Shown: positions 13,323 to 31,882, counted from the first letter of the stretch. The stretch: DNA of 64,000 nt from Fuerstiella sp. (GCA_022447225.1 JAKVAZ010000014.1:62001-126000), one strand, 5' to 3'. The notes: generated from the letters alone by a model not told the origin. Made by a program: numbers and translations.

Positions 13323-14499
13323 CAATGATCTCCAGAGTGGTGATTGAGTCCTGTTCGATTCCGCAGGCTGATTGTGATCTGCGGGGTGAAATTTGTGATC
13401 ATGCAGGGGGTATGATTCAAAGCAACCGTCGCAGGCGGTCCGTACCGTCACCGGCTACAGACAGCTCATCCCGTCAAACGTTTTTGGTGTGACGAATTGT
13501 GACAGGGCCGCAGTACTACATAATTCGTGCCAAACGTCGAACAGCCGCCAAAAGCAGTCGCCAACGGGCCTCGTGTTGGATTTGTTCTTCTGCAGTGCAG
13601 CAATTCGAAACAGGCCTTCAGCTTAGGTGTGCCAAATTGCACCAGCAAACGGGCAGTCGCTGGACACCATTTGACGCTCACCCCAAAGCTGTGGTCCGGG
13701 ACTAGATTGAACATCGCCGCGGTCAGAAACCGATGTCTTTCAGCAGCCTGGCCTTTGTTGGCAGGCCGGCGTTCCCACAGCAGTCGACAGACTGTTTTTG
13801 CGGGGTCGACCCTGTTTGGATTCAGCAAGTTCAATGGTTGTCAAACCGTGGATTCCGCCGTTCCCTCTGTAGGCCAAATTCAACGTGCACCGGGTACCAC
13901 AGACAGCATTCTGCACCGCCCGACTGCTCGAAGGGAAAGGGCGGTAAGCACGGAGGCAGACGTCCCTCAAATTTCTGTCCGATTCACTGGCGTGTTCTCT
14001 GAAGAACAGAGGGTGCTGCTGTATCATGCGAAGTGAATTGCCGTGGGCACGGTGTTATGCTGAGCGGTCGCGTGTTTACTTTGCTGAGCATCCTCGCCAC
14101 AGTCATTGCTCCTTTGGTGGGAAATTATTGATATCTGATTCCGACGCCTCTGACGATCCTTCCTTATCTCTGCAGCAGCAGAGTGATGTCACAGGCGATC
14201 GCTTTGAAGCTGATTGAATCCAGCATGGACATCAAGCAGATGATCGCTTGGTTTGAAGCCGAACGTTCGACCCTGACCATGACGGATCATTCGCACATTG
14301 CCAATCTGCCGGGTGTGGGGATCACGAAGCACGGCACTTCCTGCTTTATGCTGAAACGTTGCAAATCGGCTGAAATGGCAGCATGGAACCGAAGGGGCTG
14401 TGAAATTCATAAAAAACAAACAATGGTCAGACTGTGATTGGTCCTCAGAATGAGCTGATCACCGATTGTATGTCTGGTCACCAGATTAAAGGGATCAAA
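13323..14499. other. 1.2-kb gap with no supported gene
   Basis: Several overlapping frames on both strands (for example 13527-14036 plus, 13466-13834 minus, 14183-14437 plus) are open. None shows a recognisable domain, a signal peptide or a convincing RBS, and they contradict each other. The region may hold decayed coding DNA. Confidence 0.4.
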
Positions 14500-16038
14500 A
14501 TGTGGCGTGAGTATGAAATCCTGTGTCTGAGCCTTTGGGTGGTGAGTTGCTGTGGTTGCGCCCAGGATCAAGCCGATTCGGGAACGCCTCCGGAACCGAA
14601 AGCAGTGAACTCACAGAAGGTGGTACCTCAGGAAATCCCGGTCGCGACTGTTGAAGACTTGTTTGATCAGCTGGCAATTTCGTCGAGTCCTGCCGATTTT
14701 CTGTCAAAATTCACCGTGATACAAAGCGATCACGGTGATGCGGCCGTACGTCTGGCGGAACAGGAACTTGCTCAGCCGATTAAGAGCGATGTCAGTCCGG
14801 AAGAATCCGAAGTATTGGTTCGTCGTCAGGCCAATGCGGCAATCCTGCTGTTGAAACTGGATAAGCCACAGTCGGTGTGGCCTTTGCTGAAACAGAGTCC
14901 GGATCCCGGTCTCCGCAGTTCTATTATCAATTGGCTGGGCCCGCGGGGAGGTGATGTGCAGACTGTCATCTCCCGCTATGAACAGGAATCGGAAGTGAGC
15001 GTCCGGCGTGCGCTGCTGCTTTGTCTGGGGGAGTTTGAGTTATCGGATTCGGCTCGTCAGCCACTGATCGACAAACTGCTGGATGTTTACAGGAACGATC
15101 CGGAAGCGGGTGTTCATGCAGCGGCCGAATGGCTGCTGCGTCGGTGGTATGCGGCGGAACAACTGGTGATGATTGATGAAGAGCTTGCTCAGACCGGTGG
15201 ACAATTTTTGACGGTCGATGACAACGCCCGCGACTGGTTTATCAATGGCCAGGGGCAGACGTTTGCCGCGCTTGATGGCGGTGAATTTCAGATGGGATCT
15301 GCGGAAACGGAAGCTCACCATCAAGAAGATGAAAATTTGCACCGTCGTGTGATTGAAGGTCGATTTGCGATAGGTGTGAAAGAAGTGACGTTCGCCCAGT
15401 GGCGCACGTTCAGCAGTCAGGCGGGTCTGACGGATGATGAGTCTGTCAGTGGCAGCGATGACTCACCGGTGGTGAATGTAACCTGGTTTCAGGCCGTCCA
15501 TTACTGCAACTGGCTAAGCGAGCGGGAAGGGATTCCAGAGGATCAGTGGTGTTACGAAGCGAATGCTGACGGTGTTTACGGTCCGGGAATGAAATCTCAT
15601 GATAATTTTTGGGAGCGGGGCGGTTACCGCTTACCGACGGAGTCGGAATGGGAATATGCGTGTCGAGCGGGTTCAGTGACCAGTTATAACTACGGCAATA
15701 CGAACGACCTGTTGTCGAGGTATGCCTGGCACGGGGAGATTAGTGGAGATTATCCCCATCCTGTGGGTCTGCTGAAGCCGAACGACTTTGGTCTGTTCGA
15801 TATGCATGGGAATGTGTTGGAGTGGTGCTCGGACTGGTATGGTGAATATCCGGACGAAGTTGTCCGTGATCGCAAGGGACCTTTGCAGGGTTCGGACCGG
15901 GTGCTCCGGGGTGGCAGCTGGATCAGCAACGCCAGGTATTGCCGTTCAGCGTTCCGCATCTACTATGCGCCGGTCAACCGTTACATCAACCTGGGCTTTC
16001 GTGTGTGTCTGAGTCCGTCGGGGGCCGGAGGCCGGTAA
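14500..16038 (+). CDS. Lipoprotein with HEAT-like repeats and an FGE-sulfatase (C-type-lectin-like) domain
   Basis: From ATG 14500 the 512-residue protein has a lipoprotein signal (lipobox at Cys17 or Cys20). Residues about 70-230 are helical repeats resembling HEAT. Residues about 265-512 are an FGE-sulfatase domain: GGEFQMGSAE, VTFAQWRTF, 'VVNVTWFQAVHYCNWLS', YRLPTESEWEYACRAG, GLFDMHGNVLEWCSDWYGE, RVLRGGSW, and the C-terminal LGFRVCLSPSGAGG. Most bacterial proteins of this class are binding folds rather than true formylglycine-generating enzymes. The 3' 124 bases align with the DGR template at 26327-26450 without gaps. In the inner part (26333-26428), 15 differences fall on template adenines and 7 on other bases, as if this were an old DGR target that has since drifted. 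Confidence 0.8.
   Translation: MWREYEILCLSLWVVSCCGCAQDQADSGTPPEPKAVNSQKVVPQEIPVATVEDLFDQLAISSSPADFLSKFTVIQSDHGDAAVRLAEQELAQPIKSDVSPEESEVLVRRQANAAILLLKLDKPQSVWPLLKQSPDPGLRSSIINWLGPRGGDVQTVISRYEQESEVSVRRALLLCLGEFELSDSARQPLIDKLLDVYRNDPEAGVHAAAEWLLRRWYAAEQLVMIDEELAQTGGQFLTVDDNARDWFINGQGQTFAALDGGEFQMGSAETEAHHQEDENLHRRVIEGRFAIGVKEVTFAQWRTFSSQAGLTDDESVSGSDDSPVVNVTWFQAVHYCNWLSEREGIPEDQWCYEANADGVYGPGMKSHDNFWERGGYRLPTESEWEYACRAGSVTSYNYGNTNDLLSRYAWHGEISGDYPHPVGLLKPNDFGLFDMHGNVLEWCSDWYGEYPDEVVRDRKGPLQGSDRVLRGGSWISNARYCRSAFRIYYAPVNRYINLGFRVCLSPSGAGGR
15889..16017 (+). repeat. Degenerate VR-like segment in the FGE lipoprotein
   Basis: This stretch pairs base for base with the template repeat (offset 10438). 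The Asn-AAC codons of the template appear here as ATC, AGC, TTC, TAC, TAT or GTC, while the framework (GGSW, CRSA, LGF) is kept. Unlike the true VR it also carries several silent non-adenine changes and an eroded 3' end. It is therefore probably not an efficient acceptor for this template today. Confidence 0.5.
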
Positions 16039-17284
16039 GGGCAATGGCACAGAAGTATCGCGACCAGCGTAGCCAGTCTCTCGCGTTTTCTTTCAATCTC
16101 AGGCTCCGCCCTCCCTCAGTCCCAGGTTCCGGCCAGACATTGCCAGTTCTGGAAGCGGTGCGTGGATCGTTTCATCACTGAGGAACATTGGTTGTCACGG
16201 TGAGCAGGGAAACAGAGCTTTCCGGGCCGGCGCTCCGCAGTCGGAGCTGCGGAAAGAGATCACCAATCGAATAGTTTGACTGTTACCGACTCATGTGTTT
16301 TGCAGCTGGATGGAAAACAGCCCAAAAGGTGACTCGAAAGTATGACCTGAAGACAATGGAAGAACAATTCGTCAAAGCGAAGCCCGAACGGTCTGAATTG
16401 GCCTGGCATGCCTCTCATCAAACAGTGACTTGTCCGGATAAACACAGCTCATCAGTCAAACCGCTGGTACAAGATAGCCGAGGCGGGACTCGAACCCGCA
16501 CGCCCTTTACGGACCCGGGATTTTAAGTCCACCCATACTGTCTGACCAGTGTCCGGCGAGTGTCGGAACACTGGTTTTTGACGCGTGTGATTGATGCAGG
16601 AAACTGCGCCAAATGGCTGCTGCATCCAGTGCGAGGTGACACTTTAGGTGACACCTCGCCTGGGATCGGCAGGTCGAGATGTCAAAACATGATCTGGATG
16701 AGATCCGCTAAGCCATCGGGTTTTGCTGAACGAGCGTGGGAACATTCAGCAGCTTCAAGTTGCGCAGCATGAACTGCAGGCAGCCGACGTGAGCAGGCTG
16801 TCGCTGGGACGTGCAATGGATCCTCAGTCAGTTGTACCTCGCCGCACGCAAGGGGGGCCTTGACCCCCATCGCGGTGCCACATGTATTTAGGCAGGCCTC
16901 TGAGTTTTTTCCCGGCCCAAAGCTTGTTGTGATTTAGGGCAACAGGTCATACTCAGTCGCAGAATATGGTTTCCCGGGTAACGCAGGTCGAGCGAGAGCA
17001 TGGCCAAAGATCACGACAAAAGTCCTCGCGATCAAACCAGTATCGCAGGAGCCGCGGAGTGGCTTAGCCACGGGCCTGTAGACTGAGCGTCGATGCGATG
17101 ACCATCGACGTCCACGCACCAACCGGCGATTTCCCGATCACGTTCGGTTCAGATGATTCGCAGTATGACACAAACCACGATGTAGCGCATCCGCGTGTTG
17201 AGTGACGATCGGTTGGTGAGTGAGTTATGATCGCGTAGTGATACTTAAAGAACGTGCCGATTTGTGAAGCGAGGCTGCGGTGCT
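16039..17284. other. 1.2-kb gap with a tRNA fragment only
   Basis: No protein gene is supported here. It contains the tRNA-Leu 3' half at 16475-16531. It also has a small perfect inverted repeat (GCGAGGTG at 16631-16638 with CACCTCGC at 16652-16659). The first 100 bases weakly resemble the DNA after the DGR target gene. Confidence 0.45.
16475..16531 (-). tRNA. tRNA-Leu(TAA) 3' half (partial or pseudo-tRNA)
   Basis: Read on the minus strand this gives the anticodon loop CTTAAAA (anticodon TAA), the 3' side of the anticodon stem, a long variable arm, a perfect T arm around GGGTTCGAGTCCC, and the acceptor 3' strand CCTCGGC followed by TA. The 5' half does not complete the molecule: the D arm is poor, the anticodon stem 5' strand mismatches, and only about five acceptor pairs can form. 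A clean 3' half starting near the anticodon is what tRNA-targeting integrases leave, so it may mark an old attachment site. Confidence 0.5.
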
Positions 17285-18379
17285 ATGTCGGAAACAAAAC
17301 CACGCATTCAAAAATGGACGCCGGTGTGTCTGATCATTCTGGTCGCAATCGCTGTCTGGCTGGTTCGCAGCGAAGGTGAGAAAAACCGCAAGGCCTTCGA
17401 GAAAGCGAGCACCGATCTGAAACAGGAAATCCGAGACGCTCCCGGCAGGTCCGTGAAAGCGGCTGCGAAGGAAGTGGTTCGCTTGCCGGGACAAATTTTG
17501 GACGAAATCCGAGACGGCGTCCTGGATGACTCTTCATCCGCAGAGACCGATGCGAAGGGCGACCCGACATTCGACGATAAGGTTGATTCGGAGACCAGGC
17601 AGCGTGATGCAAGTGACTTTGTTTCAGATGTTTTCAAGCTGGGCCAAACAATTACCAAGACGGTCGACAACGTTGGGCAGGAAGTCCTGGCATTAAGCGT
17701 CGAAGATGAGAAGCGGATCGGTGGTCAGTTGCACGACCTCATTCGCAAACAGCACAAGGTGTTGAGGTCGGACGGCCAGGCAACTCAATTGAACCGACTG
17801 GCAAAACCGTTGCTGCAGAGCTGTAAGCGTCCGGGCATTGATTACACGTTCACCGTACTGGATTCACCCGAAATCAATGCATTCTCGCACGTGGGCGGTT
17901 ACGTCTACGTCAACACAGGATTGCTGGAGTTCGTGGGGGGAGATGTGGAACTTGAGTTTGTGCTGGGGCACGAAATCGCGCATGTCGAACTAAAGCACTG
18001 TACGCGCAACCTGACATATGCGGCCCGCGCGTCGGAACTGGCGGGAGAATTGGGCGAAACGTTGGTTCAGATCGCGTACCATCTGGTTGCCGTGGGGTAT
18101 TCGGAGGACCAGGAATTTGCAGCCGACAAGTGGGCCTTTCGGCAAATGATCGCATTGGGACGTGATCAGGATAAGGCCCTGGCTCTGCCTCGCCGGTTTG
18201 CAGAGAAGGAGAAGCGGGAGGGACGCAGCAAAGAACGGCCCAGGTCGCGGGCTCCTGCCGATACCGTCGTCCAGGAAATCGACAATCACTTCCGGACTCA
18301 TCCTGCCGCCGCCGAACGACTGCGGCGGTTGAAAGGGCTGAACGTCACGTCTGATGGACGTCGCGACGGTAGAGAATAG
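17285..18379 (+). CDS. Membrane-anchored M48-family zinc metalloprotease
   Basis: ATG 17285 gives 364 residues. One N-terminal transmembrane helix (VCLIILVAIAVWLV) is followed by a charged linker and an M48 peptidase domain. The zinc site HEIAH begins at His229, and the third-ligand helix is the EFAADKWAF segment. 'NAFSHVGGYVYVNTGLLEF' is the usual M48 strand-turn. M48 proteins (HtpX/BepA/LoiP-like) degrade misfolded or envelope proteins, and this one should face the periplasm or equivalent compartment. Its 3' end overlaps the convergent FHA-ABC gene by 35 bases. A role in that envelope system is only suggested by position. Confidence 0.85.
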   Translation: MSETKPRIQKWTPVCLIILVAIAVWLVRSEGEKNRKAFEKASTDLKQEIRDAPGRSVKAAAKEVVRLPGQILDEIRDGVLDDSSSAETDAKGDPTFDDKVDSETRQRDASDFVSDVFKLGQTITKTVDNVGQEVLALSVEDEKRIGGQLHDLIRKQHKVLRSDGQATQLNRLAKPLLQSCKRPGIDYTFTVLDSPEINAFSHVGGYVYVNTGLLEFVGGDVELEFVLGHEIAHVELKHCTRNLTYAARASELAGELGETLVQIAYHLVAVGYSEDQEFAADKWAFRQMIALGRDQDKALALPRRFAEKEKREGRSKERPRSRAPADTVVQEIDNHFRTHPAAAERLRRLKGLNVTSDGRRDGRE

Positions 18380-20981
18380 CGCCCGTGGCATAGAGCGTGA
18401 CGCATAGCATGGTCAGTAGCACCACGATCCCGGCAAAGATGCTGGTGCGTCCGTCTTCTTCGGGGAAGGACGTCTCCGCCATGTCCTGTTCTTTGTTGCC
18501 TTCGACGTTCCCTGGAACTATCGGCTTCGTCCAGGAGATTCTCTGATCGGATTCGATGAGCAGTACGCTCTCGAATGCCCATCGAGAGGGCATCATATAT
18601 GACGCGATTTTCATCATTGTGCTCGTCTGGTGCAGGGGCATCAGGACACCACCGAGCATGACCATGGGCAGGAGGATCAACGGGAGAATTGCGACGGCAG
18701 CTTCTGACGTGCGGACCAGTGCCGAAACCAACAGCCCGATCGACAGGCCGACCAGCGACACTAATACCAGGATGAACAGCATGCCCAGCCCGGAGCCTTC
18801 CAGGCCGTTGCCCCAGTGAACGATGCCCAGCAGGCAGATGCACTGGACCACGCACAGGGAGCCCAGAACCGCGAACTTCGAACCGATGTATGGCACGATC
18901 CGCAGGTTGACCATCCGCTCGCGATGATAGATGGCCCACTCCGCAACAATTTCGCGAATGGAGTTAGAGCAACCAAACCAGAGTGCTGACAGGGAAAGCA
19001 GAAACACTGTGGTGGTGGAGGCCTTGGCTACGCTTAGCCAATTCCCGTCGTCCATCGCCTTGCTCGACTCGCGCCCGAAGATCTGCCAGATCAAGATCGC
19101 GATGATTGGTGCCTGCGCGAGGAGAATGAGCGTATTGGCCCTGTCCTTCATCTTGATGGCCAGGCAGCGCAGAACGAGCGGCCGCCACTGGATTGATGGA
19201 CGTTGAGTGGTCGGGCCGGTTTGAGTCGAGTGCTCTTGAATGACGGCGGATCTACGGCGCCGTTTCGACACGAATTCCTTTTGATAATCCGATCCGGAGT
19301 ACTTCTGCACCCAGTCGTCTGTCTGACCACGCGCCAGTCCCCGCAGCACCTCGTCAGGTCCTGGGAACATTCCGGGAATCAGGTCGGACACTCCATCTGG
19401 ATTGAAAAATTTAACGGAGTCAGGATAGGCCGGTCCGTAGTAAGCCATCTGTCCTGGCTGCCTCGACTCCTGGTCCCTGGAAACGACGACCAGGTTATCA
19501 AGCAGTTGAAAGATCTCCAGACTGGGCTGGTGGATCGTAAGCAAAATCGTTTTTCCGGAATCTGCCAAGTTGCGAAGGACCTTCATAACGCTCAGCGCAT
19601 CTTCGGAGGAAAGTCCCGACGTCGGTTCGTCGAGAAACAAAAGTGATGGGTCGGTCAACAGCTCCATGGCGAGATTGACTCGCTTGCGCTGGCCGCCACT
19701 GATGCCTTTTTTTTCGGGCGAACCGATCAGTACGTTGTGCGTGTGTTCAATGTCCAGATCGGCCAGTACCTTCTTGATCCGGTTATGAATTTCACGATCT
19801 CGAAAATCAGGTGGCAGCCGCAGGCGGGCCGTGAAATACAGAGCCTCGGCAACGGTCAGATCCGAGTGGATGATGTCGTCCTGCGGCACATACCCAATCT
19901 GACCGCGGAACTGGCTGTAATTGCGATAGAGATCCTCGCCGTTCAAGAGGATGTTCCCATTGCTGGGTGGCGTATAACCGTTCATGGCCTTCATCAGGGT
20001 CGTTTTTCCTGCCCCGCTGGGACCCATTAAACCGGTGAACTCCGATGGGTTTATTGTCAGTGAAATCTTGTCAAGTAACCGAAAGCCGGGAACATCGATG
20101 GCAATCGATCGTGCCTCCAGGGTCAGGTCGCCACGAAAATCACGCTTTTTCAGAGATCCGTCCGCGGTCAACACAAAACTGAAGCTGCCTAACGAAATTG
20201 TGTCTCCCGGATTGACCGGGGCTGATCCGTCGATTGCTAGGCCATTGACGAACGTGCCATTCGTGGAATCCAGGTCTTCCACAATGATTGACGAACCCGT
20301 CCGAATCATGCGCGCGTGCTTCCCCGAGATCATGGGAAAGTCCAGAACCTGATCGCAATCTGACGAGCGACCAAAGGTCATCTCTCGGCCACTGAAGGAA
20401 ATTGCCTTCGACGATCCTGACGTTGATTCTTTCGAATCGGCAGTCGCAAGTTGGGATCCGCGTGGATCGGGCAATGACCGCCCCAAGAGTTCGCTGGCCT
20501 GAACCGCGTGTGAACCGAAAAAGACCATGTCTGTCGGCGAAAGCGGCGAACGTTCGATGTGATTGTCTGGTGTTCCAATTCCCGTGCCGTTGGTCGAGCC
20601 CAGGTCTTCGATGACGAGAGAATCTCCACTCAGGATGATCTGTGCGTGATAAGAAGAAACCGCCGAACGAGCGATTACCACGTCGTTATCCGGCGCGCGG
20701 CCAATACGAATGATCTGCGTCCTAACAGCGCCCGTATCCTGGTCCGCGTCCGGCCAGGGCATCGGGACGTTCTGGCCCAGCGTGATACGATCCGATCGCT
20801 TGACTGAAACCGATGTTGTCACCTGGATCCTGTTGACGAACGTACCGTTCGCCGAGCCCAGGTCTTCGATCAGAAATCCGTCACCGACTTGTCGCAAACG
20901 GCAATGCTGACGGGAAACAACGGGGGCCTCGACTACGACATCGCAGTCCGCAGAACTGCCAATGATCCATTCGCGGTCCAT
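18345..20981 (-). CDS. Triple-FHA ABC transporter (ABCG-like half transporter)
   Basis: From ATG 20981 the protein has about 878 residues. Three FHA domains lie at roughly 5-60, 88-160 and 190-275. Each has the phosphothreonine-binding pattern: 'G(R/S)..D.D', 'S..HA', and 'DL.S.NGT'. An ABC ATPase follows (about 290-530): Walker A GPSGAGKT, signature SGGQRKR, Walker B LLFLDEPTSGL. Six or so membrane helices fill the last 270 residues, as in ABCG/White-type exporters. FHA domains read Thr phosphorylated by Hanks-type kinases, and the divergent neighbour is such a kinase. The pairing suggests phospho-controlled export or membrane remodelling. TTG 20987 would add two residues. Confidence 0.88.
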   Translation of the reverse strand: MDREWIIGSSADCDVVVEAPVVSRQHCRLRQVGDGFLIEDLGSANGTFVNRIQVTTSVSVKRSDRITLGQNVPMPWPDADQDTGAVRTQIIRIGRAPDNDVVIARSAVSSYHAQIILSGDSLVIEDLGSTNGTGIGTPDNHIERSPLSPTDMVFFGSHAVQASELLGRSLPDPRGSQLATADSKESTSGSSKAISFSGREMTFGRSSDCDQVLDFPMISGKHARMIRTGSSIIVEDLDSTNGTFVNGLAIDGSAPVNPGDTISLGSFSFVLTADGSLKKRDFRGDLTLEARSIAIDVPGFRLLDKISLTINPSEFTGLMGPSGAGKTTLMKAMNGYTPPSNGNILLNGEDLYRNYSQFRGQIGYVPQDDIIHSDLTVAEALYFTARLRLPPDFRDREIHNRIKKVLADLDIEHTHNVLIGSPEKKGISGGQRKRVNLAMELLTDPSLLFLDEPTSGLSSEDALSVMKVLRNLADSGKTILLTIHQPSLEIFQLLDNLVVVSRDQESRQPGQMAYYGPAYPDSVKFFNPDGVSDLIPGMFPGPDEVLRGLARGQTDDWVQKYSGSDYQKEFVSKRRRRSAVIQEHSTQTGPTTQRPSIQWRPLVLRCLAIKMKDRANTLILLAQAPIIAILIWQIFGRESSKAMDDGNWLSVAKASTTTVFLLSLSALWFGCSNSIREIVAEWAIYHRERMVNLRIVPYIGSKFAVLGSLCVVQCICLLGIVHWGNGLEGSGLGMLFILVLVSLVGLSIGLLVSALVRTSEAAVAILPLILLPMVMLGGVLMPLHQTSTMMKIASYMMPSRWAFESVLLIESDQRISWTKPIVPGNVEGNKEQDMAETSFPEEDGRTSIFAGIVVLLTMLCVTLYATGAILYRRDVHQT

Positions 20982-21008
20982 CGTCAACGTTCTTTATGAG
21001 AGTAAGAG

Positions 21009-21051
21009 ACACAAACGTCTTGTGTGGCATTTGGTAATTCTGACGAGAATT
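21009..21051. promoter_or_regulatory. Two palindromes in the kinase/FHA-ABC divergent promoter
   Basis: The 188-bp divergent gap contains ACACAA-5 nt-TTGTGT (21009-21025) and AATTCT-4 nt-AGAATT (21036-21051), both perfect inverted repeats ten bases apart. Such paired dyads are operator-like and would let one regulator control both genes. No sigma-factor box can be assigned with confidence. Confidence 0.35.
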
Positions 21052-21169
21052 CGGCGGTTACAAAAGGTATACGGGCTGGATTTCGGATTCATAGACGAAC
21101 GCCAGATTGTCCGAACGCTGTGGCGTGAGTATGCTGAGTGGATACACGATTGTTAAGTCGAGGATCTGC

Positions 21170-24100
21170 ATGTCGTCCCAGGACGCTCACGGCTGGATCG
21201 GCCAGACGCTGGCCGAGCGTTATCACGTCACCGAGAAACTCGGTGCCGGAGGCATGGGGACCGTCTACAAGGCCAGCGACATACGGTTGGTCACCGACGT
21301 GGTCATCAAAGTCCCGCACCCGATGATGATCAGGGATGCCGAGTTTGCCGCTCGTTTTCACCTGGAGATCCGCTCACTGGTCAAGCTGTCGCACCCGAAC
21401 ATCGTCAAGGCGCTGGACGTTGGTGTGCATGACGGTTTGCCGTTTGCGGTGATGCAGTACCTTTCCGGGGGCAGCCTGGAAGATCGCGTCCGTCCCTGCC
21501 GCCCGGCGGAGGTCGCGGCCTGGTTACCCGACGTAGCGGCTGCGTTGGATTTTCTGCACTCGGAAGGTCTGGTCCACCGGGACATCAAACCCGACAACAT
21601 TCTGTTCGATGCGTCGGGTCGCGCGTACCTAGGCGATTTCGGCATCGCCAAGGTGCTGGCCGAGAGTGAGGAGTCGGACGCGAAGCGGCTGACCGGCACC
21701 GGGACCCTGATCGGTACGGCGGAATACATGGCGCCGGAGATGCTGATTCCATCGGCCTATCAGGAAGCGTACAACGAACGAATTGATCAGTACTCGTTGG
21801 GAGTGACCGTGTATGAGCAGTTGTCGGGTCGTCCGCCGTTTCGTGGAAATACGATGGCGGAGGTGGTCGTACTTTTGGCGACAAAGCCGGCCACGCTGCT
21901 GCACAATCGGAATTCCGACATTCCGGAGTTGGTATCCCGTGTGGTGGGTCGGTCGTTATTCAAGAAGCCGGATCGTCGTTACGCGAGCTGTCTGGCGTTT
22001 TCAGAATCGTTTGCATCGGCTGTAAGCGGGGAAGCGGAGCCGGCCGTGGGAAAACCATCGTCCCCCCGTCGCAAGACGGATGCTCCGGCTGCGGCCAGGC
22101 GGCAAGCGACGCAGTTTGAGCGGCCGGGCAAGTCTGTTGCGCGTCCACGCACCCCGACGGTTCCGGAATCGTCACCACCTCCCGTGCGGCAGTCAACCGT
22201 GCGTGAGGCTGCCGTGCGGCGTACTCTTGCGGAAACACAGCCAGAACGTGGAGAGACCATCCGGGAGAAGCGGCCGCCAGCAGTTGAGGAGTCTGTCAAA
22301 GCACCATTACAGAAAAACTGGTCGTCGCGCAACAAAGTGGTTCTCTGGTTGGTTGGCGGTGTGATCTGCTTAAGTGTACCGGTCCTCGCCATTCTGATCG
22401 GCTTTGTTTTCGGGAACGTGCATCCGAATGGTCCCAACGACTCGAGCCCGGTAGTCACTTCCGACCAGCAAACGGATCAGGACGCCGAGAGGAAACGCCT
22501 GGCAGATCAGGACGCCGCGAGGAAACGCGAGGCAGATCAGCAATCCGAGAAAGCAGCCGCCGTATTGGTACCGAACCCCGATCCGCCCGCTGTGTTGTCT
22601 CAGGTTCCGACTTCGACATCGCCAGAGGTCGAGAACTCCATACCAGAGATGGAGAACTCCATCGGCATGGAGTTGAAGCTTCTTCTTGGTGGAACATTCA
22701 TGATGGGCGAAGGTGGTGCTGCCCATCAGGTGATATTAACGAAGCCGTTTTATCTTGGTGTGTACGAGGTAACCCAGACGCAATATGAGCGGGTGATGGG
22801 TAACAACCCGAGTAAATTCAAGGGGCAAAGCAATCCTGTGGAGCAAGTGTCTTGGGATGACGCGGTAGAGTTCTGCCGCAAGTTGTCCTCGTTGCCTGGG
22901 GAAAAGTCAGCTGGTCGCGTGTATCGATTGCCGACAGAAGCAGAATGGGAATACGCCTGCCGTGCGGGGACGACGACGGCATACAGTTTTGGCGACAACC
23001 AGAGTCATCTGACCGAATACGGTTGGTTTAGAGAGAACTCGGGGAGAACCACGCATGCGGTTGGCAAAAAGAAACCAAACCCATGGGGTTTGTTCGATAT
23101 GCACGGCAACGTTTATGAGTGGTGTCAGGATCGATACGGGACTTATCCGGATGGGCCAGTGACAGATCCCATGGTCCCCGCGTCTGGCTCGACGGCCGTG
23201 CGACGGGGCGGAGGCTGGTCCTACTATGCGTCCGCTTGTAGTTCGTCTTACCGTATCAGTAACTGGCCGGACAAACGGCCCTCCGCCCTGGGCTTCCGCG
23301 TGGTCCTGAGTCCGGCTGCACAGGAGCATACTGGTGCAATGAGTTCTCGCAGGAGTACGTCCCACTCGAGTTCCCATGTGGGTGCTTATGGACACCCGGC
23401 TGTGGCGACTCAGGTGAAATTTACCGGACAGCCAGGAATGGTTATTGGCTGGAAAGTGTCCGACGGCTGGGCCAATGACCAGTTGATCTCCGGAAGTCGC
23501 TTCGATTTTCCGCAAAATGCAGTCTACCAGCTGAAGTTCACTGGCTTCTCCATGGAGGGCTACGAGGGACTCCAGTTGTACCCAACACTTGAAGTTCGTG
23601 GCACAGATCCGAACACTCGGGAATACCTCGAACACAGCGTTGTACCGGTTGAAGTCACCGAAGAAGATCTGGAACACGTCATCCATAACAATATGGTGAC
23701 AAAGGTCATCTATCTACCGGATCCAAAACATCAGTCCCGAGCGATTGCCGCTGTGGAAACATTGATTTCCACCAGGCTCGCCCCAGGCATCGACCCGGTT
23801 CAACAGGCTGAACGCATGGGCTCCATTCTGGTTGTGCTGCGATTCGGCAACAAGGATTTGGAAATGCCAACGGCCGTGATGGCTGCAAACGGCACTTTTG
23901 CGACCGAGGATAGCGGCGATACGGGCGCCGAGAGGAAACGGCTGGCAGATCAGGACACTTCCGACCAGCAAACGGATCCCGTAAAGACGAATTCCATCGG
24001 TATGCAGTTGAAGTTTCTTCCTGGTGGGACATTTAGTATGGGATCAGATTCAGGAGACAGTGATGAACGTCTTCATCAGGTGACTCTCACGCAGCCGTTT

Positions 24101-24688
24101 TACATGGGCGTCTCCGAAGTAACGCAGGAGCAGTACGAGCGGGTGATGGGCACCAACCCAAGTCACTTCAAAGGTGCAAAGCATCCAGTTGAGCAGGTGA
24201 GTTGGGATGACGCGGTGTCGTTCTGCCGGATGTTGTCCTCGTTGCCTGCGGAAAAGTCTGCGGGTCGAGTGTATCGATTACCGACGGAGGCAGAATGGGA
24301 ATACGCATGCCGAGCGGGAACGACCACGGAATACAGTTTCAGTGACCGTGATTCGCGATTGGACGAATACGCGTGGTTTGCAGACAACTCTGGTAAGACG
24401 ACCCATCCGGTTGGTCGACAGCGCGCGAATGGTTGGGGCTTGTACGACATGCATGGGAACGTGTGGGAGTGGTGTAGTGACTGGTACGGGGAATACCCAA
24501 GTGGCTCTGTGAGGAATCCCAGCGGACCGTCTTCGGGCTCGTTCCGGGTGTTCCGGGGCGGTTGCTGGTTCTACGCCGCCAGGAATTGCCGGTCGGCGAA
24601 CCGCGACAACAGCGCGCCGGACGACCGCTACCGCGACCTGGGCTTCCGCTTGGTCCTGAGTCCGTCCGCCGCCGGAGGCGCGAGATGA
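21170..24688 (+). CDS. Transmembrane Ser/Thr receptor kinase with two FGE-fold ectodomains; DGR target
   Basis: ATG 21170 follows GAGGATCTGC; an open frame continues up to 21107, and the residue numbers below count from 21107. A Hanks-type kinase occupies about 39-305: glycine loop GAGGMGTV, VAIK-like VVIKV, HRDIKPDN, GDFG and GTAEYMAPE. A Pro/Arg-rich juxtamembrane linker (310-405) leads to one transmembrane helix (409-436) with basic residues on the kinase side. FGE-fold domain 1 spans 515-737. An unrecognised beta-rich domain spans about 765-925. FGE-fold domain 2 spans 963-1193. Two similar coiled ERKRLADQD linkers precede the FGE domains. Residues 1144-1185 are encoded by the DGR variable repeat, so the surface of the last ectodomain is hypervariable. 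The last gene-specific residues are AAGGAR. Confidence 0.92.
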   Translation: MSSQDAHGWIGQTLAERYHVTEKLGAGGMGTVYKASDIRLVTDVVIKVPHPMMIRDAEFAARFHLEIRSLVKLSHPNIVKALDVGVHDGLPFAVMQYLSGGSLEDRVRPCRPAEVAAWLPDVAAALDFLHSEGLVHRDIKPDNILFDASGRAYLGDFGIAKVLAESEESDAKRLTGTGTLIGTAEYMAPEMLIPSAYQEAYNERIDQYSLGVTVYEQLSGRPPFRGNTMAEVVVLLATKPATLLHNRNSDIPELVSRVVGRSLFKKPDRRYASCLAFSESFASAVSGEAEPAVGKPSSPRRKTDAPAAARRQATQFERPGKSVARPRTPTVPESSPPPVRQSTVREAAVRRTLAETQPERGETIREKRPPAVEESVKAPLQKNWSSRNKVVLWLVGGVICLSVPVLAILIGFVFGNVHPNGPNDSSPVVTSDQQTDQDAERKRLADQDAARKREADQQSEKAAAVLVPNPDPPAVLSQVPTSTSPEVENSIPEMENSIGMELKLLLGGTFMMGEGGAAHQVILTKPFYLGVYEVTQTQYERVMGNNPSKFKGQSNPVEQVSWDDAVEFCRKLSSLPGEKSAGRVYRLPTEAEWEYACRAGTTTAYSFGDNQSHLTEYGWFRENSGRTTHAVGKKKPNPWGLFDMHGNVYEWCQDRYGTYPDGPVTDPMVPASGSTAVRRGGGWSYYASACSSSYRISNWPDKRPSALGFRVVLSPAAQEHTGAMSSRRSTSHSSSHVGAYGHPAVATQVKFTGQPGMVIGWKVSDGWANDQLISGSRFDFPQNAVYQLKFTGFSMEGYEGLQLYPTLEVRGTDPNTREYLEHSVVPVEVTEEDLEHVIHNNMVTKVIYLPDPKHQSRAIAAVETLISTRLAPGIDPVQQAERMGSILVVLRFGNKDLEMPTAVMAANGTFATEDSGDTGAERKRLADQDTSDQQTDPVKTNSIGMQLKFLPGGTFSMGSDSGDSDERLHQVTLTQPFYMGVSEVTQEQYERVMGTNPSHFKGAKHPVEQVSWDDAVSFCRMLSSLPAEKSAGRVYRLPTEAEWEYACRAGTTTEYSFSDRDSRLDEYAWFADNSGKTTHPVGRQRANGWGLYDMHGNVWEWCSDWYGEYPSGSVRNPSGPSSGSFRVFRGGCWFYAARNCRSANRDNSAPDDRYRDLGFRLVLSPSAAGGAR
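23288..23314 (+). repeat. IMH-like copy at the end of FGE domain 1
   Basis: These 27 bases match the end of the VR (24638-24664) at 26 positions. The DNA before them has diverged widely from the template, including many non-adenine changes. It is best explained by internal duplication of the FGE domain that kept the conserved LGFR strand. Confidence 0.45.
24536..24661 (+). repeat. DGR variable repeat (VR)
   Basis: The VR aligns with the TR at 26327 with a constant offset of 1791 and no gaps. In 124 bases there are 17 differences; all 17 are at template adenines (9 A to T, 7 A to G, 1 A to C) and none are at the 92 other bases. Changed codons give Phe, Phe, Cys, Phe, Tyr, Ala, Asp, Ser, Ala, Asp, Tyr, Arg and Asp in place of template Asn, Ser or Thr. 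The unmutated 3' 22 bases are identical in both copies and would be the initiation-of-mutagenic-homing region. Confidence 0.96.
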
Positions 24689-24726
24689 GCGGAGCGTGCG
24701 ACGTAAGCCCGGAGGGAGCAAGGCGG

Positions 24727-24745
24727 AGCCGCGACCGCCGCGGCT
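24727..24745. promoter_or_regulatory. GC-rich hairpin downstream of the VR
   Basis: AGCCGCG (24727-24733) and CGCGGCT (24739-24745) form a perfect 7-bp GC-rich stem with a 5-nt loop, 66 bases after the VR. In the Bordetella phage DGR a similar stem-loop just after the VR promotes homing. The larger spacing here makes the role uncertain. Confidence 0.4.
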
Positions 24746-24854
24746 GGAGTGTACGTGTAGCCACAGTTTCCGGCGACGAGCGCAGCGAGGCGCTGGCGTT
24801 TGATTTTGTGGGGCGCAAGCATTTCATGATCCGTCCTGCGATCCGGACAGCCTG

Positions 24855-25352
24855 ATGGCCTTACGTTTTTTCACGATTCCAGTTCAGGCAGACGATGATG
24901 CAGCTCAGGAGCTGAACTCGTTTCTGAACGCTCATAAAGTGTTATCAGTGGAACGGCACTTCGTTGACCAGGGTGTGAACTCCTTTTGGGCCATCTGTGT
25001 TGATTTCTTCGCAGGCGAATCGAAAAAGTCTCCAGTGGCGTCGCGGGGGCGAAGTCAGGTCGACTACAAAGAAATCCTGTCGTCCGATGAATTCACCGTG
25101 TTTTCGGAACTGCGACGAATTCGTAAAGCGATCTCGCAGAAAGAAGCAGTTCCGGTGTATGCCATTTTTACGAATGAGCAGCTCGCTCAGATGGTGCAGC
25201 GACGCTGTCGGTCAAAAACAGCGTTGCTGAACATCGAGGGAATCGGAGAGGGACGCGTTGAAAAGTATGGCAGTCAGATTCTTGAAGTTCTTTGCGTTCA
25301 ATTAAGTCCGGACGATGAAACGAACGAGCCAGCTGTTTCCACAGATACCTAA
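24855..25352 (+). CDS. DGR accessory protein with HRDC domain
   Basis: The 165-residue product begins MALRFFTIPVQ and has an N-terminal module (FLNAHKVLSVERHF, NSFWAICVDF) of the type found beside DGR reverse transcriptases. A C-terminal HRDC domain follows (about 75-150: SELRRIRKAISQ, VPVYAIFTNEQLAQM, LLNIEGIGEGRVEKYG). HRDC folds bind nucleic acid. In DGRs such proteins stand in for Avd, which binds template RNA and RT for cDNA priming. No Avd gene is present here. The 3' end overlaps the RT gene by 38 bases, so the two are probably translationally coupled. Confidence 0.88.
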   Translation: MALRFFTIPVQADDDAAQELNSFLNAHKVLSVERHFVDQGVNSFWAICVDFFAGESKKSPVASRGRSQVDYKEILSSDEFTVFSELRRIRKAISQKEAVPVYAIFTNEQLAQMVQRRCRSKTALLNIEGIGEGRVEKYGSQILEVLCVQLSPDDETNEPAVSTDT

Positions 25353-26355
25353 AAGAAACAACCTGCGGCTCGCATTCTATCGTGCGGCTCGCGGAAAACG
25401 CGATCGCTCTGTCGTTCGTCAGTTCGCAAAGAAACTGGACAGAAACCTTGAGAACATGTCGGAACAATTGCTCGCCGGCGTCGTTCCCGTTGGACAGTAC
25501 CGGCAGTTTGTGATTCGCGATCCGAAAGAGCGCGTGATCACTGCTCCCTGTTTTTCGGAACGCGTTCTGCATCACGCGATTATCAATATCTGCGAGCCGT
25601 ACTTCGAACGATGGCTGATCAAAGACACGTATGCCTGCCGCCGAGGCAAAGGTCGCGAAGCCGCAATAAACAGAGCGAGTGTGTTTTCCCGCAGGCACCG
25701 TTGGTTTTCACAGTTGGATGTCAGGAAATATTTTGACAACATTTCGCATCAGCGACTGCTGTGCCTGCTGCGCCGACGATTCAAAGACCTTCCACTGCTG
25801 GCCCTGATGCGACGCATCATTGTCGCATTTCGCGGGGAATCCGGGCGTGGATTACCAATTGGCAGTTTGACATCACAGCATTTTGCCAACCTGTATCTGG
25901 GGCACGTTGACCGGTATGCCAAAGAACAACTGCAACTGCCAGGTTATGTGCGATACATGGATGACATGGTCTTGTGGCACGATGATCGAAAACAACTGGA
26001 ACGGATCACACAGAAATGCACGCAATACCTGAAGGAAAATCTGGATTTGGATGTCAAGCCGCCGATCCTGAACCGTACTGACTTTGGAATCAATTTTCTG
26101 GGCTGCCGAGTGTTTCCGACGCACACGATTCTCAGCCGTCGCAGCAGGATTCGCTGGCGGCGAAAGCTACAAGACGTGCAACGCCAGTGGGCACAGGGAT
26201 TGATCAGTGAACACGGGCTGCAACAACGCCTCAACTCTCTGACGGCCTTCGGTGTCGCCGCAAATACGCAGAGTTGGCATTTCCGTTCAACAGTGTTAGA
26301 ACAGTTTCAGGTGGACGATCATGAAAGGCTCGAACCGGGTGAACCGGGGCGGTAG
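25315..26355 (+). CDS. DGR reverse transcriptase
   Basis: The 346-residue protein carries the RT domains in order. Motif 3 is DVRKYFDNI, with a catalytic Asp at 135. IGSLTSQ at 182-188 is the DGR hallmark, replacing the QG motif of retroviral and group II RTs. The catalytic YMDD lies at 214-217, followed by the LGCRVF strand near 263. There is no maturase or endonuclease domain, as expected for a DGR RT. ATG 25315 lies inside the accessory gene. The stop codon TAG at 26353-26355 lies inside the template repeat, so the last ten residues are encoded by TR DNA. The RT would copy TR RNA with adenine-specific misincorporation. Confidence 0.95.
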
Positions 26356-26452
26356 CTGGAACAACACCGCCAGGAATTGCCGGTCGGCGAACCGCAACAA
26401 CAACACGCCGGACAACCGCAACAACAACCTGGGCTTCCGCTTGGTCCTGAAT
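26327..26452 (+). repeat. DGR template repeat (TR)
   Basis: The TR contains repeated AAC codons (Asn) at the positions that vary in the VR, the usual design for maximal amino-acid change by adenine mutagenesis. Of 32 adenines in the 124-base core (26327-26450), 17 differ in the VR. The similarity may begin as early as 26324, because the preceding AAA is also changed. Adenine 26451 differs too, and the first non-adenine mismatch is at 26453. The first 29 bases overlap the RT gene. Confidence 0.96.
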
Positions 26453-26545
26453 TCCGCTGGAGTACGAAAGATTCGAGTTCCCGGACGGAACAGATCGGCC
26501 CTCTGTCTGGTTGGGCGAGTGCTTAATCAGCAAATCTCAAAGACG

Positions 26546-26603
26546 ACCGCCTGACGCTGGTAGCGGGTCAGATGACCTGTCGAACGTTTCAGGCGGTTTT
26601 TAT
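26546..26603 (+). terminator. Intrinsic terminator after the DGR template repeat
   Basis: ACCGCCTGA (26546-26554) pairs perfectly with TCAGGCGGT (26589-26597), followed at once by a T-run. The 34-nt loop can form a smaller stem. It would end the accessory-RT-TR transcript about 95 bases after the TR. Confidence 0.7.
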
Positions 26604-26748
26604 TGGGTGGACAGACCGATCCGCAACCACAGCGCCTGCAGTGCACACGCGACACCAGCCAGTGAACGATGAGACGGCCTGATCGCTCACGGCAGATGCT
26701 GGTTGAAACGAGTCTCTGGATGCGGCATGGTGCTGCACGAAGAGATGA

Positions 26749-27330
26749 TCAACTGGCCAGTACGGCCTGGTCGCCAAGGTTCGAACTGTTTGCCGGGATC
26801 AGTCTCCAACCCAGTCGTTGCGCTGCATTGAGCACGAGCTCTGGATCCTGCTCGATCAGCTTTTTCAGCTGCATGTCGACTAGGTTCTTCAAGTCGGCAT
26901 CAGACGTATTGTCCAGGGTCGCACGACGTTGCATGTCCTGTTCGCGTTGAAGTTCCCAGAGAAGTTCAAACAGACGTAACAGACGTGGAGAGGACTGTCC
27001 TCTGTTCACCAGATCATGGATTGCAGCGACCCACTTCTTCAGGAAGCTATCGAATCCACCCACGGCTTTGATGCCGAGCTGAAAGATACGACGTCGGCGT
27101 TGCTGGTCGCGGGTACTGCAGTACGCGGTAGCGAACTTCTGGATGACGAGCTGATCCTGCTGTTGGCGTTTCTTACGCCTTCGCAATCGCTCTCGCCTGA
27201 CATGACAGAAATTGCATACCGTCACTCTTTGCGGGCGGTCTCGATAGCGCCGCCGGAAGCTGGTTAGCGGTTTGAGCTCTGCGCACTCTGAACACAATTT
27301 GACAGGTTTTTCCGTGATTTTCCTCTTCAC
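26749..27330 (-). CDS. Basic zinc-finger-like protein of unknown function
   Basis: GTG 27330 has GGAGG nine bases upstream and gives 193 residues. An N-terminal CSEC...CNFC pair of CxxC knuckles spaced by an Arg-rich loop suggests a zinc ribbon. Residues about 45-70 (RRERLRRRKKRQQQ) are very basic. The rest is helical, with several Leu/Gln/Arg-rich segments. It may bind nucleic acid. A TTG at 27396 would add 22 residues. It faces the DGR terminator and lies at the possible left edge of the integrative element; membership of either is unproven. Confidence 0.6.
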   Translation of the reverse strand: MKRKITEKPVKLCSECAELKPLTSFRRRYRDRPQRVTVCNFCHVRRERLRRRKKRQQQDQLVIQKFATAYCSTRDQQRRRRIFQLGIKAVGGFDSFLKKWVAAIHDLVNRGQSSPRLLRLFELLWELQREQDMQRRATLDNTSDADLKNLVDMQLKKLIEQDPELVLNAAQRLGWRLIPANSSNLGDQAVLAS

Positions 27331-27500
27331 TATTTGACGCCTCCGTGCCAAATTTGGAGATCCTCTGTTGTTGACCCTAACTAGAGTCAGCAGCAAGAGT
27401 TAAAGTGTGTCATGAGGCCGATTATACCACTTATGGATACCGTGGTGATGGTCCGAAGTCGCGTTCTGATTCGTCCAATGCTTGAAGCGAGCAAATCAAT

Positions 27501-28427
27501 ATGGCAGGACTCAAGGAACTTGATGATCAGCTGGCTGATCTCTACGACTTTATTAGCGCAAAGATCTCTTATGAAGAATTGCGAGTTCGCGTTCGGCCTT
27601 TATTGGGCTCGCTTACGCACGATGACAGGGGAGGGCGAATTGATCAGTTTGGACAGAAACTGTTGTTTCCTCGCTGGCGTATGGATTTCCAAACCTACGG
27701 ACATGTTTTCACGGCACTGTTCGGTGACATTCGAGAGGATGGAATCACTCAACGCCTGTACCAGTTGTTTGTAGAACTGGTCCGGCTGGAATGTGAACCG
27801 CAGAGCGACGACTCTCAAGACAGCACCATATCTCGCGTTCAGGGAGCACTGCACAGATACCTGACGATTCGGGGATGTGGCCTATGTGCCTATCCTGGGC
27901 TGGGTGAATTCGTCCCTGTTCCTGTTGAAGGGGCACCCCCGTTGGCCCGGGGTTATATCCTGTCAGAAAATGGCCAAGAGTTTACCGAACACTCGCTTGG
28001 TACCACGGTGACTTTTGACGAAAACGATGTGCGAAATAACCTGGCCGGGAGGGCTGTAGAGAGTCTATTTTCGGATCTGTGTGGGGGTGTGAAAAACGTA
28101 GCACCTGACGAGTGCAATACAGTTAACGACTGGCCGCAACACTGCACCCATTCACAAAACTTTGGATATGTGAACTGGTACGGAACCAAATTCACATTCT
28201 CAGCGACACAGCAGGGCGTCGTGCAGCATCTCTGGCAGGCAAAGGTTGATGGCACGCACGTTGTTTCCGATGCCGATCTCTTGGAGGCATGTGGTAGTGA
28301 CGCAGGTCTATTGCGGGATGTATTTCGTTCACGAGGCGTATATCACCCAGCATGGAACACACTCATCGTTAAGGCTGGAGCTAGCAACCAGCGCAAATTG
28401 GCAGACGGAAAACTTGAAGAAATTTAA
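27501..28427 (+). CDS. Unrecognised protein with winged-helix-like C-terminus
   Basis: The 308-residue product has no family I can name. The N-terminal half is rich in helices (LADLYDFISAKISYEEL, ITQRLYQLFVELVRLE). The C-terminal part (FTFSATQQGVVQHLWQA, VSDADLLEACG, LLRDVFRS, WNTLIVKAG) has the pattern of a winged-helix domain seen at the ends of many mobile-element proteins. It could regulate or bind DNA in the adjacent element. It is followed directly by the 11-bp direct repeats at 28431. Confidence 0.6.
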   Translation: MAGLKELDDQLADLYDFISAKISYEELRVRVRPLLGSLTHDDRGGRIDQFGQKLLFPRWRMDFQTYGHVFTALFGDIREDGITQRLYQLFVELVRLECEPQSDDSQDSTISRVQGALHRYLTIRGCGLCAYPGLGEFVPVPVEGAPPLARGYILSENGQEFTEHSLGTTVTFDENDVRNNLAGRAVESLFSDLCGGVKNVAPDECNTVNDWPQHCTHSQNFGYVNWYGTKFTFSATQQGVVQHLWQAKVDGTHVVSDADLLEACGSDAGLLRDVFRSRGVYHPAWNTLIVKAGASNQRKLADGKLEEI

Positions 28428-28430
28428 AAA

Positions 28431-28470
28431 GCCACATCTGGGCCACATATGGGCCACATATGGGCCACAC
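28431..28470. repeat. 11-bp direct repeats, iteron-like
   Basis: The unit gccacatatgg occurs three times head to tail (the first copy with one change) plus a partial fourth. The 11-bp spacing is about one helical turn, and the repeats lie just upstream of the excisionase-like and primase-helicase genes. They may be protein-binding iterons or an integration-associated site. Confidence 0.5.
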
Positions 28471-28488
28471 TAGCCCCGGCATACTCCT

Positions 28489-28534
28489 TTCAGTGTCACG
28501 CTGATGCGTGATCAATCGTTCCCGCGACACTGAA
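28489..28534. promoter_or_regulatory. 9-bp inverted repeat before the excisionase-like gene
   Basis: TTCAGTGTC (28489-28497) and GACACTGAA (28526-28534) are perfect arms. The 28-nt centre contains the palindromes ACGC-TGAT-GCGT and TGATCA. It ends 13 bases before the next start codon, so it may be an operator or origin structure. Confidence 0.45.
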
Positions 28535-28547
28535 TATGGAGATTTGA

Positions 28548-28820
28548 ATGCTTAGCACGCTGCAACCGGTTGAGGCTGATGTTGCCTATCCGCTGCCCCT
28601 CTTTATGTCGATCACCGGACAAGGCCGAAACGCACTCGCACAGGCCCGCCGAGATGGCCTGACGATCCGCAAACGAGGAAACCGCAAATACGTCCTCGGA
28701 AGCGATTGGATCGAATTCCTGCAGTCACACGGAACCGTAGAAGAACACGCCTCTAAACAAAAAAAAACGCCCGCCGGTTCACAAGGCCGGCAGGGCGTTG
28801 AATACACAATTAACGGATAG
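28548..28820 (+). CDS. Small excisionase-like DNA-binding protein
   Basis: The 90-residue product resembles a small MerR/excisionase-type winged helix: 'FMSITGQGRNALAQARRDGLTIRKRGNRKYVLGSDWIEFL' has the recognition helix and basic wing of such proteins. A Lys-rich tail follows. ATG 28548 has GGAG seven bases upstream. Seven bases separate it from the primase-helicase gene, so they form an operon. It would serve as excisionase or repressor of the element. Confidence 0.6.
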   Translation: MLSTLQPVEADVAYPLPLFMSITGQGRNALAQARRDGLTIRKRGNRKYVLGSDWIEFLQSHGTVEEHASKQKKTPAGSQGRQGVEYTING

Positions 28821-28826
28821 TTAACT

Positions 28827-31073: not shown

Positions 31074-31111
31074 TGCTCGTTAACGAGGACCAACGAACAT
31101 CTATTCGGAAG

Positions 31112-31168
31112 GAGGTGTGTGTGTGTTGTTTTCCCCTTTAGGGGGAAACAACGACAAACACATACCTC
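31112..31168. promoter_or_regulatory. Long RNA hairpin after the primase-helicase gene
   Basis: A 12-bp stem (31125-31136 with 31141-31152, one G-U pair, TTTA loop) is extended by GAGGT (31112-31116) and ACCTC (31164-31168) with a GT-rich imperfect middle. No U-run follows on the plus strand. It may be an attenuator, a processing site or a packaging signal of the element. Confidence 0.5.
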
Positions 31169-31214
31169 ATGTACATACGGCATCTTTGCAAGGGTTACAG
31201 AAACGGAGAGTTAA

Positions 31215-31334
31215 ATGGCAGAATCAAGTGAGGTGAACTCGATCCGAGGGTTAAAACGAAAGAAACATACTCTGGTCGGGCATGACGGACGCACAGCTGG
31301 CGAACTCACGGTGGAAGATCATGTGGCTGATTGA
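31215..31334 (+). CDS. Small basic protein, 39 residues
   Basis: ATG 31215 follows GGAGAG nine bases upstream. The product MAESSEVNSIRG... contains a central LKRKKHTL basic patch and an acidic end. It lies between the primase-helicase and the terminase-like gene in the same direction. No family is recognised; short length keeps confidence low. Confidence 0.35.
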   Translation: MAESSEVNSIRGLKRKKHTLVGHDGRTAGELTVEDHVAD

Positions 31335-31469
31335 ATAGGCAAAAGGTCGTTCAGCAGTCGTTACTAAGCTTCAGGGAGGGGTAAGGGGGCAAAAAGTTAC
31401 AAGCCATCCCTTCACAGAACCCCAATCCTAACGCGCACAAAAAAATCGATTTTTGAAAGCAGAGATGAC

Positions 31470-31814: not shown

Positions 31815-31817
31815 TTT
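31800..31817 (+). repeat. 18-bp direct repeat, copy 1
   Basis: gttgcaatcgaatagttt recurs exactly at 32269-32286. This copy spans the last codons and stop of the small-terminase gene. Confidence 0.6.
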
Positions 31818-31857
31818 GCGGCAAAGACTCCCAGTGTAATGGCGCTCTTTTAGGTGA

Positions 31858-31882
31858 ACCGCCAGGTGCGTTGCCTGGCGGT
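31858..31882. promoter_or_regulatory. 9-bp perfect hairpin after the terminase-like gene
   Basis: ACCGCCAGG (31858-31866) and CCTGGCGGT (31874-31882) surround a 7-nt loop. It lies 44 bases after the stop codon. Without a U-run it is a weak terminator candidate. Confidence 0.45.

Follow-up and report, generated by a model that had tools for sequence, protein, structure and literature searches.

In a 64,000-nucleotide stretch of a Fuerstiella sp. genome (GCA_022447225.1 JAKVAZ010000014.1:62001-126000, here called the window), the gene of a Ser/Thr kinase is followed by a diversity-generating retroelement (DGR). The best overall explanation of the locus, which we consider likely, is a single-pass Ser/Thr kinase of the receptor type whose ligand site a cellular DGR rewrites. 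That the kinase gene is a DGR target and that its product has the domain architecture described below is close to certain. The coordinates of all features are collected in Table 1.

Adenine-Specific Differences between the Template and the Kinase Gene

A reading of the window made from its sequence alone (the sequence-only reading) had proposed that a DGR acts on the C-terminal tip of the kinase, with the variable region at residues 1144-1185. Both proposals were borne out. The variable region of the kinase gene (VR1) comprises the far C-terminal 42 codons of the target open reading frame (ORF) and matches a template region (TR) over 124 bp. The two copies differ at 17 positions, each of which is an adenine in the template (nine A>T, seven A>G and one A>C), and none of the 92 non-adenine positions is changed (hypergeometric p = 1.6e-12). 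AAC accounts for 12 of the 41 template codons; 18 TR codons are mutable, stop codons are out of reach for all of them, and the number of possible protein variants is ~1.5e18. The final 24 nt are the same in VR1 and TR, as expected of a constant block resembling the initiation of mutagenic homing (IMH) element. We infer mutagenic homing into VR1 and, since VR1 carries zero non-adenine differences, homing that would have been recent.

The machinery expected of a DGR is in place. The reverse transcriptase (RT) gene has intact motifs and no stops, and next to it lies a gene for an HRDC-domain protein, HRDC being a known DGR accessory (PMC4891356, PMC10053308). Homologous RTs on plasmids are annotated next to avd, and an RT of the same type adjoins at least 10 other TR/VR pairs. 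A viral origin of the DGR was rejected, as a close relative of the RT is encoded by no viral contig.

A short GC stem closing a GGA loop was noticed at a near-constant distance 3' of VR1, of two further variable regions (VR2 and VR3, see below) and of those of a related locus, L100. It reads CGCC-GGA-GGCG after VR1 and GGCC-GGA-GGCC after VR2 and VR3, so that the stem changes are compensatory; individually the stems are not significant, each being no better than shuffled sequences (p 0.28-0.54).

Domain Layout of the Target Kinase

The sequence-only reading had described an intact Hanks-type kinase, two ectodomains with the fold of formylglycine-generating enzyme (FGE) and an unnamed middle domain, and all of these were recovered. 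It had taken residue numbers from the form with the TTG start and the start position, 21170, from the internal ATG; the mixture is harmless, and all parts are in place. A Pfam search matched Pkinase (PF00069) at residues 39-293 (2e-44); the catalytic motifs are present, and PknB is the nearest solved relative of the domain. The protein does not belong to the PASTA-type PknB/Stk1 kinases: its NCBIfam NF033483 score is 259 bits against a cut-off of 450, and its ectodomain is FGE-fold.

Two FGE-sulfatase stretches were found by the same Pfam search (7e-95). The catalytic cysteine pair of FGE (C336/C341 in the human enzyme) is kept in neither. In the second domain, FGE2, C341 corresponds to Cys 1161 and C336 to Tyr 1156, whose codon is DGR-variable, and the first domain, FGE1, is likewise. 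Since the position of the first catalytic cysteine is occupied by Tyr, neither domain is expected to be a formylglycine-generating enzyme. The middle domain (residues 749-932) had zero Pfam matches, and its AlphaFold2 (AF2) model, built from a single sequence, was poor, with a predicted local distance difference test score (pLDDT) of 42.5.

Over 273 nt (22724-22996 and 24074-24346), the DNA of FGE1 and FGE2 is 80% identical, which points to recent duplication or gene conversion; the VR segment is only 65% alike. FGE1 was considered as a second VR and ruled out, being ~65% alike to the TR and free of adenine bias.

Fold of the Variable Domain

Structure prediction of the ectodomain had been proposed by the sequence-only reading as a way to see whether the variable residues lie on a ligand face. 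An AF2 model of FGE2, built with 65 relatives, was confident (pLDDT 92.9, predicted template modelling score 0.90). Its best solved match is TvpA of Treponema denticola (2y3c; Z 34.4, root-mean-square deviation 1.8 over 227 residues, 41% identity), a DGR variable protein whose VR consists of residues 285-329 (PMC6328139). The VRs of the two proteins are in register in a gapless alignment, and FGE2 thus has both the fold and the VR position of a TvpA-like DGR variable protein of the FGE-subtype C-type-lectin (CLec) class. In all solved CLec-fold DGR proteins, the binding site is made up of the variable residues, which are exposed (PMC6328139). It is for this reason that the variable residues of FGE2 (1146-1177), which match the exposed ligand-site segment of TvpA, would be exposed as a ligand site; the exposure was assigned by homology to TvpA and TaqVP.

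Predicted Membrane Topology

A single membrane helix with basic residues on the kinase side, as described earlier, was predicted here as well. It is a 25-residue hydrophobic helix (residues 411-435) preceded by a basic, proline-rich linker; K/R residues number four in the 20 positions on its N-terminal side and zero in the 20 on its C-terminal side. The middle domain is ~90% identical to part of a 409-residue protein encoded on contig C1 of the same genome, whose start, MRFKILALGALTVVSMGCAG, is a lipoprotein signal peptide. Judging by this likeness, a domain at home outside the cytoplasm is captured between FGE1 and FGE2. Because of the charge asymmetry and the resemblance of the middle domain to an exported lipoprotein, the ectodomain of the kinase is very probably exported.

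The sequence-only reading had called the tip extracellular. Export is supported by the above, but where cells have an outer membrane, a protein that crosses the inner membrane once would hold its ectodomain in the periplasm, and the tip is therefore probably periplasmic. It follows that direct sensing of prey or surface ligands becomes less obvious. Phage, prey and kin recognition, which the same reading put forward as possible roles, are conjectural for this protein.

Recurrence of the Layout in Related Genomes

We surveyed 150 genomes of the same family, a planctomycete one to judge from named relatives of the kinases and FGE domains. A close RT was found in 10 of them, the genome of the window included. 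The DGR targets of these relatives, which include other genera of the family, have the same FGE tip and differ in what stands in front of it: NACHT at locus L100, caspase at L120, an EcoRII-N-like domain at L117, and a kinase with a transmembrane (TM) helix at L101, L103 and L121. The helix between kinase and FGE is thus present in related DGR kinases as well. The kinases of L101 and L121 have diverged, with FGD in place of HRD. EcoRII-N-like, NACHT and caspase domains were seen before the variable FGE tip at L117 18354-19661, L100 5286-8123, L120 7197-9062 and L064 6705-8663. L117 also encodes (12457-16365) one 1302-residue protein whose two FGE domains have separate VRs served by one TR, with 17/17 and 18/18 differences at A.

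In another genome of the family, G036, two paralogous kinase-TM-FGE proteins (2595-4997 and 11910-14315 of locus L141) match one TR, with 14/15 (VR-a) and 19/26 (VR-b) differences at template A; the accessory of this DGR is bAvd. Three FHA genes lie between the two DGR kinases, and the whole same-strand run on G036:C135 (2595-14315) consists of the first DGR kinase, a two-FHA protein, an FHA protein with a trypsin-like domain, one with an Hsp70 domain, a MotA/ExbB-like protein and the second DGR kinase, completed by bAvd, RT and TR. This run of genes looks like a complete signalling system.

In a tree of the kinases, into which the window kinase was entered as the cut locus L129, both G036 kinases group with the window kinase in a clade supported at 100/100, and a second, separate clade unites those of L101 and L121. 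An intact kinase with the FGE tip is conserved in three proteins of two genera. Since there are two separate kinase clades, it follows that DGR targets with the kinase-TM-FGE layout recur and arose by two or more recruitments. Kinase-FGE proteins for which no DGR was detected are common, and about half of the complete ones have a helix between the domains; therefore, the DGR probably took over a kinase-FGE layout that already existed. Neither of two congeners tested contains close relatives of the RT or of the FHA exporter described below, or a full-length kinase target, and the DGR is absent from both.

A Candidate Output of the Kinase

Divergent from the kinase gene, at a distance of 120-183 bp, is a gene for an ABC exporter with three FHA domains. 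The genome has 18 FHA genes (20 matches, three of them in the exporter gene), and with ~4,700 genes assumed, an FHA gene would adjoin the kinase by chance in less than 1% of cases for two neighbours. Because of this divergent triple-FHA exporter and of the FHA proteins flanked by the G036 kinases, phosphorylation read by FHA domains is the likely output of the kinase. That this particular exporter is the output is possible and rather doubtful.

Other Targets of the Template and Genomic Context

The same template has two further targets, a HEAT-FGE protein in the window (VR2) and a HEAT-FGE-like protein on contig C1 (VR3). In VR3, 13 of the 23 differences from the TR are at A. Since non-adenine differences are many (14 in VR2 and 10 in VR3), both look like older targets. 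Truncated kinase-like remnants lie directly upstream of both HEAT-FGE genes, at 14183-14437 of the window and at locus L108 on the minus strand of contig C1.

Table 1. Features of the kinase locus and of the retroelement, in window coordinates.
Feature	Position	Strand	Remarks
Second target, HEAT-FGE protein	14434..16038	+	lipobox-like N-terminus (VVSC)
Older VR2	15889..16012	+	differs from TR at 29 positions, 15 of them template adenines; p 5e-4
Divergent neighbour: three FHA domains, ABC ATPase, ABC-2 membrane domain	18345..20987	-	candidate phospho-reader/output
DGR target, kinase-TM-FGE1-middle-FGE2 protein	21107..24688	+	TTG start, 1193 aa; alternative internal ATG 21170, 1172 aa
Hanks-type Ser/Thr kinase domain	21221..21985	+	residues 39-293; VIK, HRDIKPDN, DFG intact
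Predicted membrane helix, sole one	22337..22411	+	residues 411-435
FGE1 ectodomain	22652..23335	+	C-terminal end ~65% identical to TR, without adenine bias
Middle domain	23351..23902	+	residues 749-932; ~90% identical to part of contig C1 lipoprotein
FGE2, VR-bearing CLec-fold domain	23987..24685	+	AF2 model; best PDB match TvpA 2y3c
VR1	24536-24659	+	codons 1144-1185; 17/17 differences at TR adenines
HRDC-domain accessory protein of DGR	24855-25352	+	PF00570, 1e-18
DGR-type RT	25315-26355	+	IGSLTSQ and YMDD motifs
TR	26327-26450	+	overlaps RT gene 3' end; 32 adenines, 12 AAC codons

The neighbours at 17264-32396 include an M48 peptidase, the FHA-ABC gene, a primase-helicase and a terminase small subunit; several ORFs are unmatched. 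The 56 bp at 16475-16530 match the 3' portion of tRNA-Leu(taa) from a congener without a mismatch; an intact copy was not found in the assembly. This piece, a probable attachment-site remnant, suggests the start of a genomic island, on which the kinase and the DGR may sit.

Phage-satellite-like genes occupy 26700-33750 (primase-helicase 28827-31073, terminase small subunit 31470-31814, c4-2 RNA 32357-32435). A tyrosine integrase (32453-33595) adjoins tRNA-Arg (33675-33748) at the right end of this satellite-like element, which has a 67-bp attachment copy on contig C13 and an empty site in the congener G001. The end of contig C13 overlaps the window exactly over 77 bp (30612-30688). Because of this overlap and of the synteny with congeners, a 95-kb island ending at tRNA-Arg 33675 is less likely than a wrong contig join near 30.6 kb, and the data suggest that contig C14 is possibly misjoined there between two satellite-like elements. 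The possible misjoin leaves the DGR unaffected.

Proposed Mechanism and Alternatives

In the mechanism that we propose, the RT and its HRDC partner, present together with the adenine signature, would copy the TR, randomise its adenines and, by homing, replace the VR. The outermost FGE/CLec domain could take any of the ~1.5e18 sequences with its fold kept. With the ectodomain predicted to face the periplasm, a ligand on the variable face would alter kinase activity, and regulation of the kinase by a ligand appears fairly probable. Phosphothreonine would be read by FHA partners, in the first place by the divergent triple-FHA ABC exporter, as in PknF-Rv1747. The cell probably pre-makes many versions of its sensor by means of the retroelement. 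The most likely use would be that of a pre-diversified periplasmic sensor of changing threats or molecules, a use favoured by the NACHT, caspase and nuclease-like targets of sister DGRs in the family; that threats are sensed, instead of nutrients or adhesion, comes just short of an even chance. The proposal in its widest form, a family of bacterial receptor kinases in which a DGR keeps randomising the periplasmic ligand site and phosphothreonine read by FHA domains is the output, with repeated recruitment within a single planctomycete family, is tentative and somewhat more likely to be wrong than right.

Several points weigh against the proposal. The claim that VR1 is diversified rests on one VR/TR pair, VR2 and VR3 look dormant, and the receptor-kinase topology is a prediction. 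The FHA exporter gene is transcribed away from the kinase gene and shares no operon with it, both congeners lack it, and the pairing of the two genes may be a coincidence. No MoxR, vWA, NACHT or STAND gene adjoins the DGR among the neighbours at 17264-32396. The targets in this lineage are varied, HEAT-FGE lipoproteins as well as kinases, and a common function need not exist.

The alternative that survives best, though we hold it to be unlikely, is the antigen sensor of a conflict system, in which a periplasmic invader molecule matching the variable site would act through the kinase and an FHA relay to cause growth arrest or death. Such a role has been hypothesised for DGRs of this kind (PMC10907252, PMC7159879) and agrees with the NACHT-FGE, caspase-FGE and EcoRII-N-FGE targets of homologous DGRs in the family and with the FHA-trypsin and Hsp70-FHA genes between the two G036 DGR kinases. 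However, the kinase and the DGR have no effector gene or known defence gene next to them in the window. Membership in a classical defence system was rejected by PADLOC, whose matches reflect only the generic kinase, RT and HRDC folds and which gave zero matches in the neighbours of the kinase.

A second, quite unlikely possibility is that the FGE domain under diversification serves chiefly for binding or adhesion (to a surface, a matrix or self), the kinase being a secondary feedback domain. Most cellular DGR targets in a global survey are membrane-anchored, with adhesion and carbohydrate-binding domains (PMC8144416), the other targets of the window DGR are HEAT-FGE proteins with no kinase, and TvpA, whose fold is the nearest, consists of one domain, the variable one (PMC6328139). 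An inner-membrane anchor, however, would keep an adhesin off the cell surface, and the kinase is intact and, as described above, conserved with the FGE tip in three proteins, other kinases having been recruited separately.

That the DGR is a relic and diversification of its target has ended is improbable: the non-adenine differences of VR2 and VR3 and the absence of the DGR from both congeners would fit, but VR1 has none in 124 bp, indicating recent homing, and the RT is intact and the TR codons are unable to mutate to stops. Most improbable are cytoplasmic FGE domains that select kinase substrates, a role proposed for CLec domains in cyanobacteria, where most DGR variable proteins are predicted to be cytosolic (PMC7517822), since a strong helix with positive-inside charges separates kinase and FGE, a helix is also present in related DGR kinases, and the middle domain is ~90% identical to part of an exported lipoprotein.

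If a receptor-type kinase with a DGR-rewritten ligand site is indeed what the window encodes, a bacterium would diversify the end by which a membrane signalling receptor senses, and would do so ahead of the ligand. A kinase read-out and a candidate downstream reader would be available, and with the variable binding site, the membrane and the enzyme in one protein, sensing by cellular DGRs would become testable by ordinary biochemistry. The link between kinases and DGRs would extend from mostly cytosolic cyanobacterial proteins to receptor-type ones, and the sister targets (NACHT, caspase, nuclease-like) would suggest a common diversified sensing module with exchangeable outputs.

Comparison with Known Systems

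The kinase and exporter pair resembles PknF-Rv1747 of M. tuberculosis, in which the gene of a Hanks-type kinase lies next to that of an FHA-domain ABC exporter and the kinase modulates the exporter (PMC3908365). The genes form a two-gene operon there, whereas in the window they are divergent. PknF is not known to be linked to a DGR.

For the variable domain, TvpA is the closest system, being an FGE-subtype CLec protein with a C-terminal VR in the same segment and an HRDC accessory overlapping the RT (2y3c; PMC4891356); unlike the window target, it is a single-domain variable protein that lacks a kinase and the layout of a TM receptor. Targets of the FGE type and proteins with FGE domains in tandem have been noted earlier (PMC3521204).

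Among the DGR targets of Thiohalocapsa, one bears a kinase, and periplasmic sensing has been proposed for some (PMC10907252). In Thiohalocapsa PB-PSB1 and other multicellular bacteria, DGR-diversified CLec/FGE tips likewise stand on signalling proteins, including one with a protein-kinase domain, and both periplasmic and cytoplasmic sensors have been proposed; these proteins belong to MoxR-vWA or STAND NTPase systems, neither of which adjoins the window DGR (PMC10907252).

In cyanobacteria, Ser/Thr kinase-CLec proteins are the commonest DGR targets, and ligand gating or substrate choice has been proposed for them (PMC7517822). They share with the window target an N-terminal Hanks-type kinase, a C-terminal DGR-variable CLec domain, remote paralogous targets and a proposed signalling role, but are mostly predicted to be cytosolic, few having a TM helix (PMC7517822). 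The window target, in contrast, has the layout of a TM receptor, with two FGE domains in tandem and a domain captured from a lipoprotein, and its system has an HRDC accessory, candidate FHA partners and a place in a planctomycete family.

A literature search that did not include the main 2018 survey found no paper on a planctomycete TM kinase as a DGR target or on an FHA link. The sequence-only reading had likened the receptor to an adaptive sensor. That a DGR acts on the tip of a receptor-like kinase is supported. The logic is not new, as kinase-CLec DGR proteins have been published (PMC7517822, PMC10907252). What is new here, next to the DGR-diversified Ser/Thr kinases already described, is the TM receptor-type planctomycete variant.

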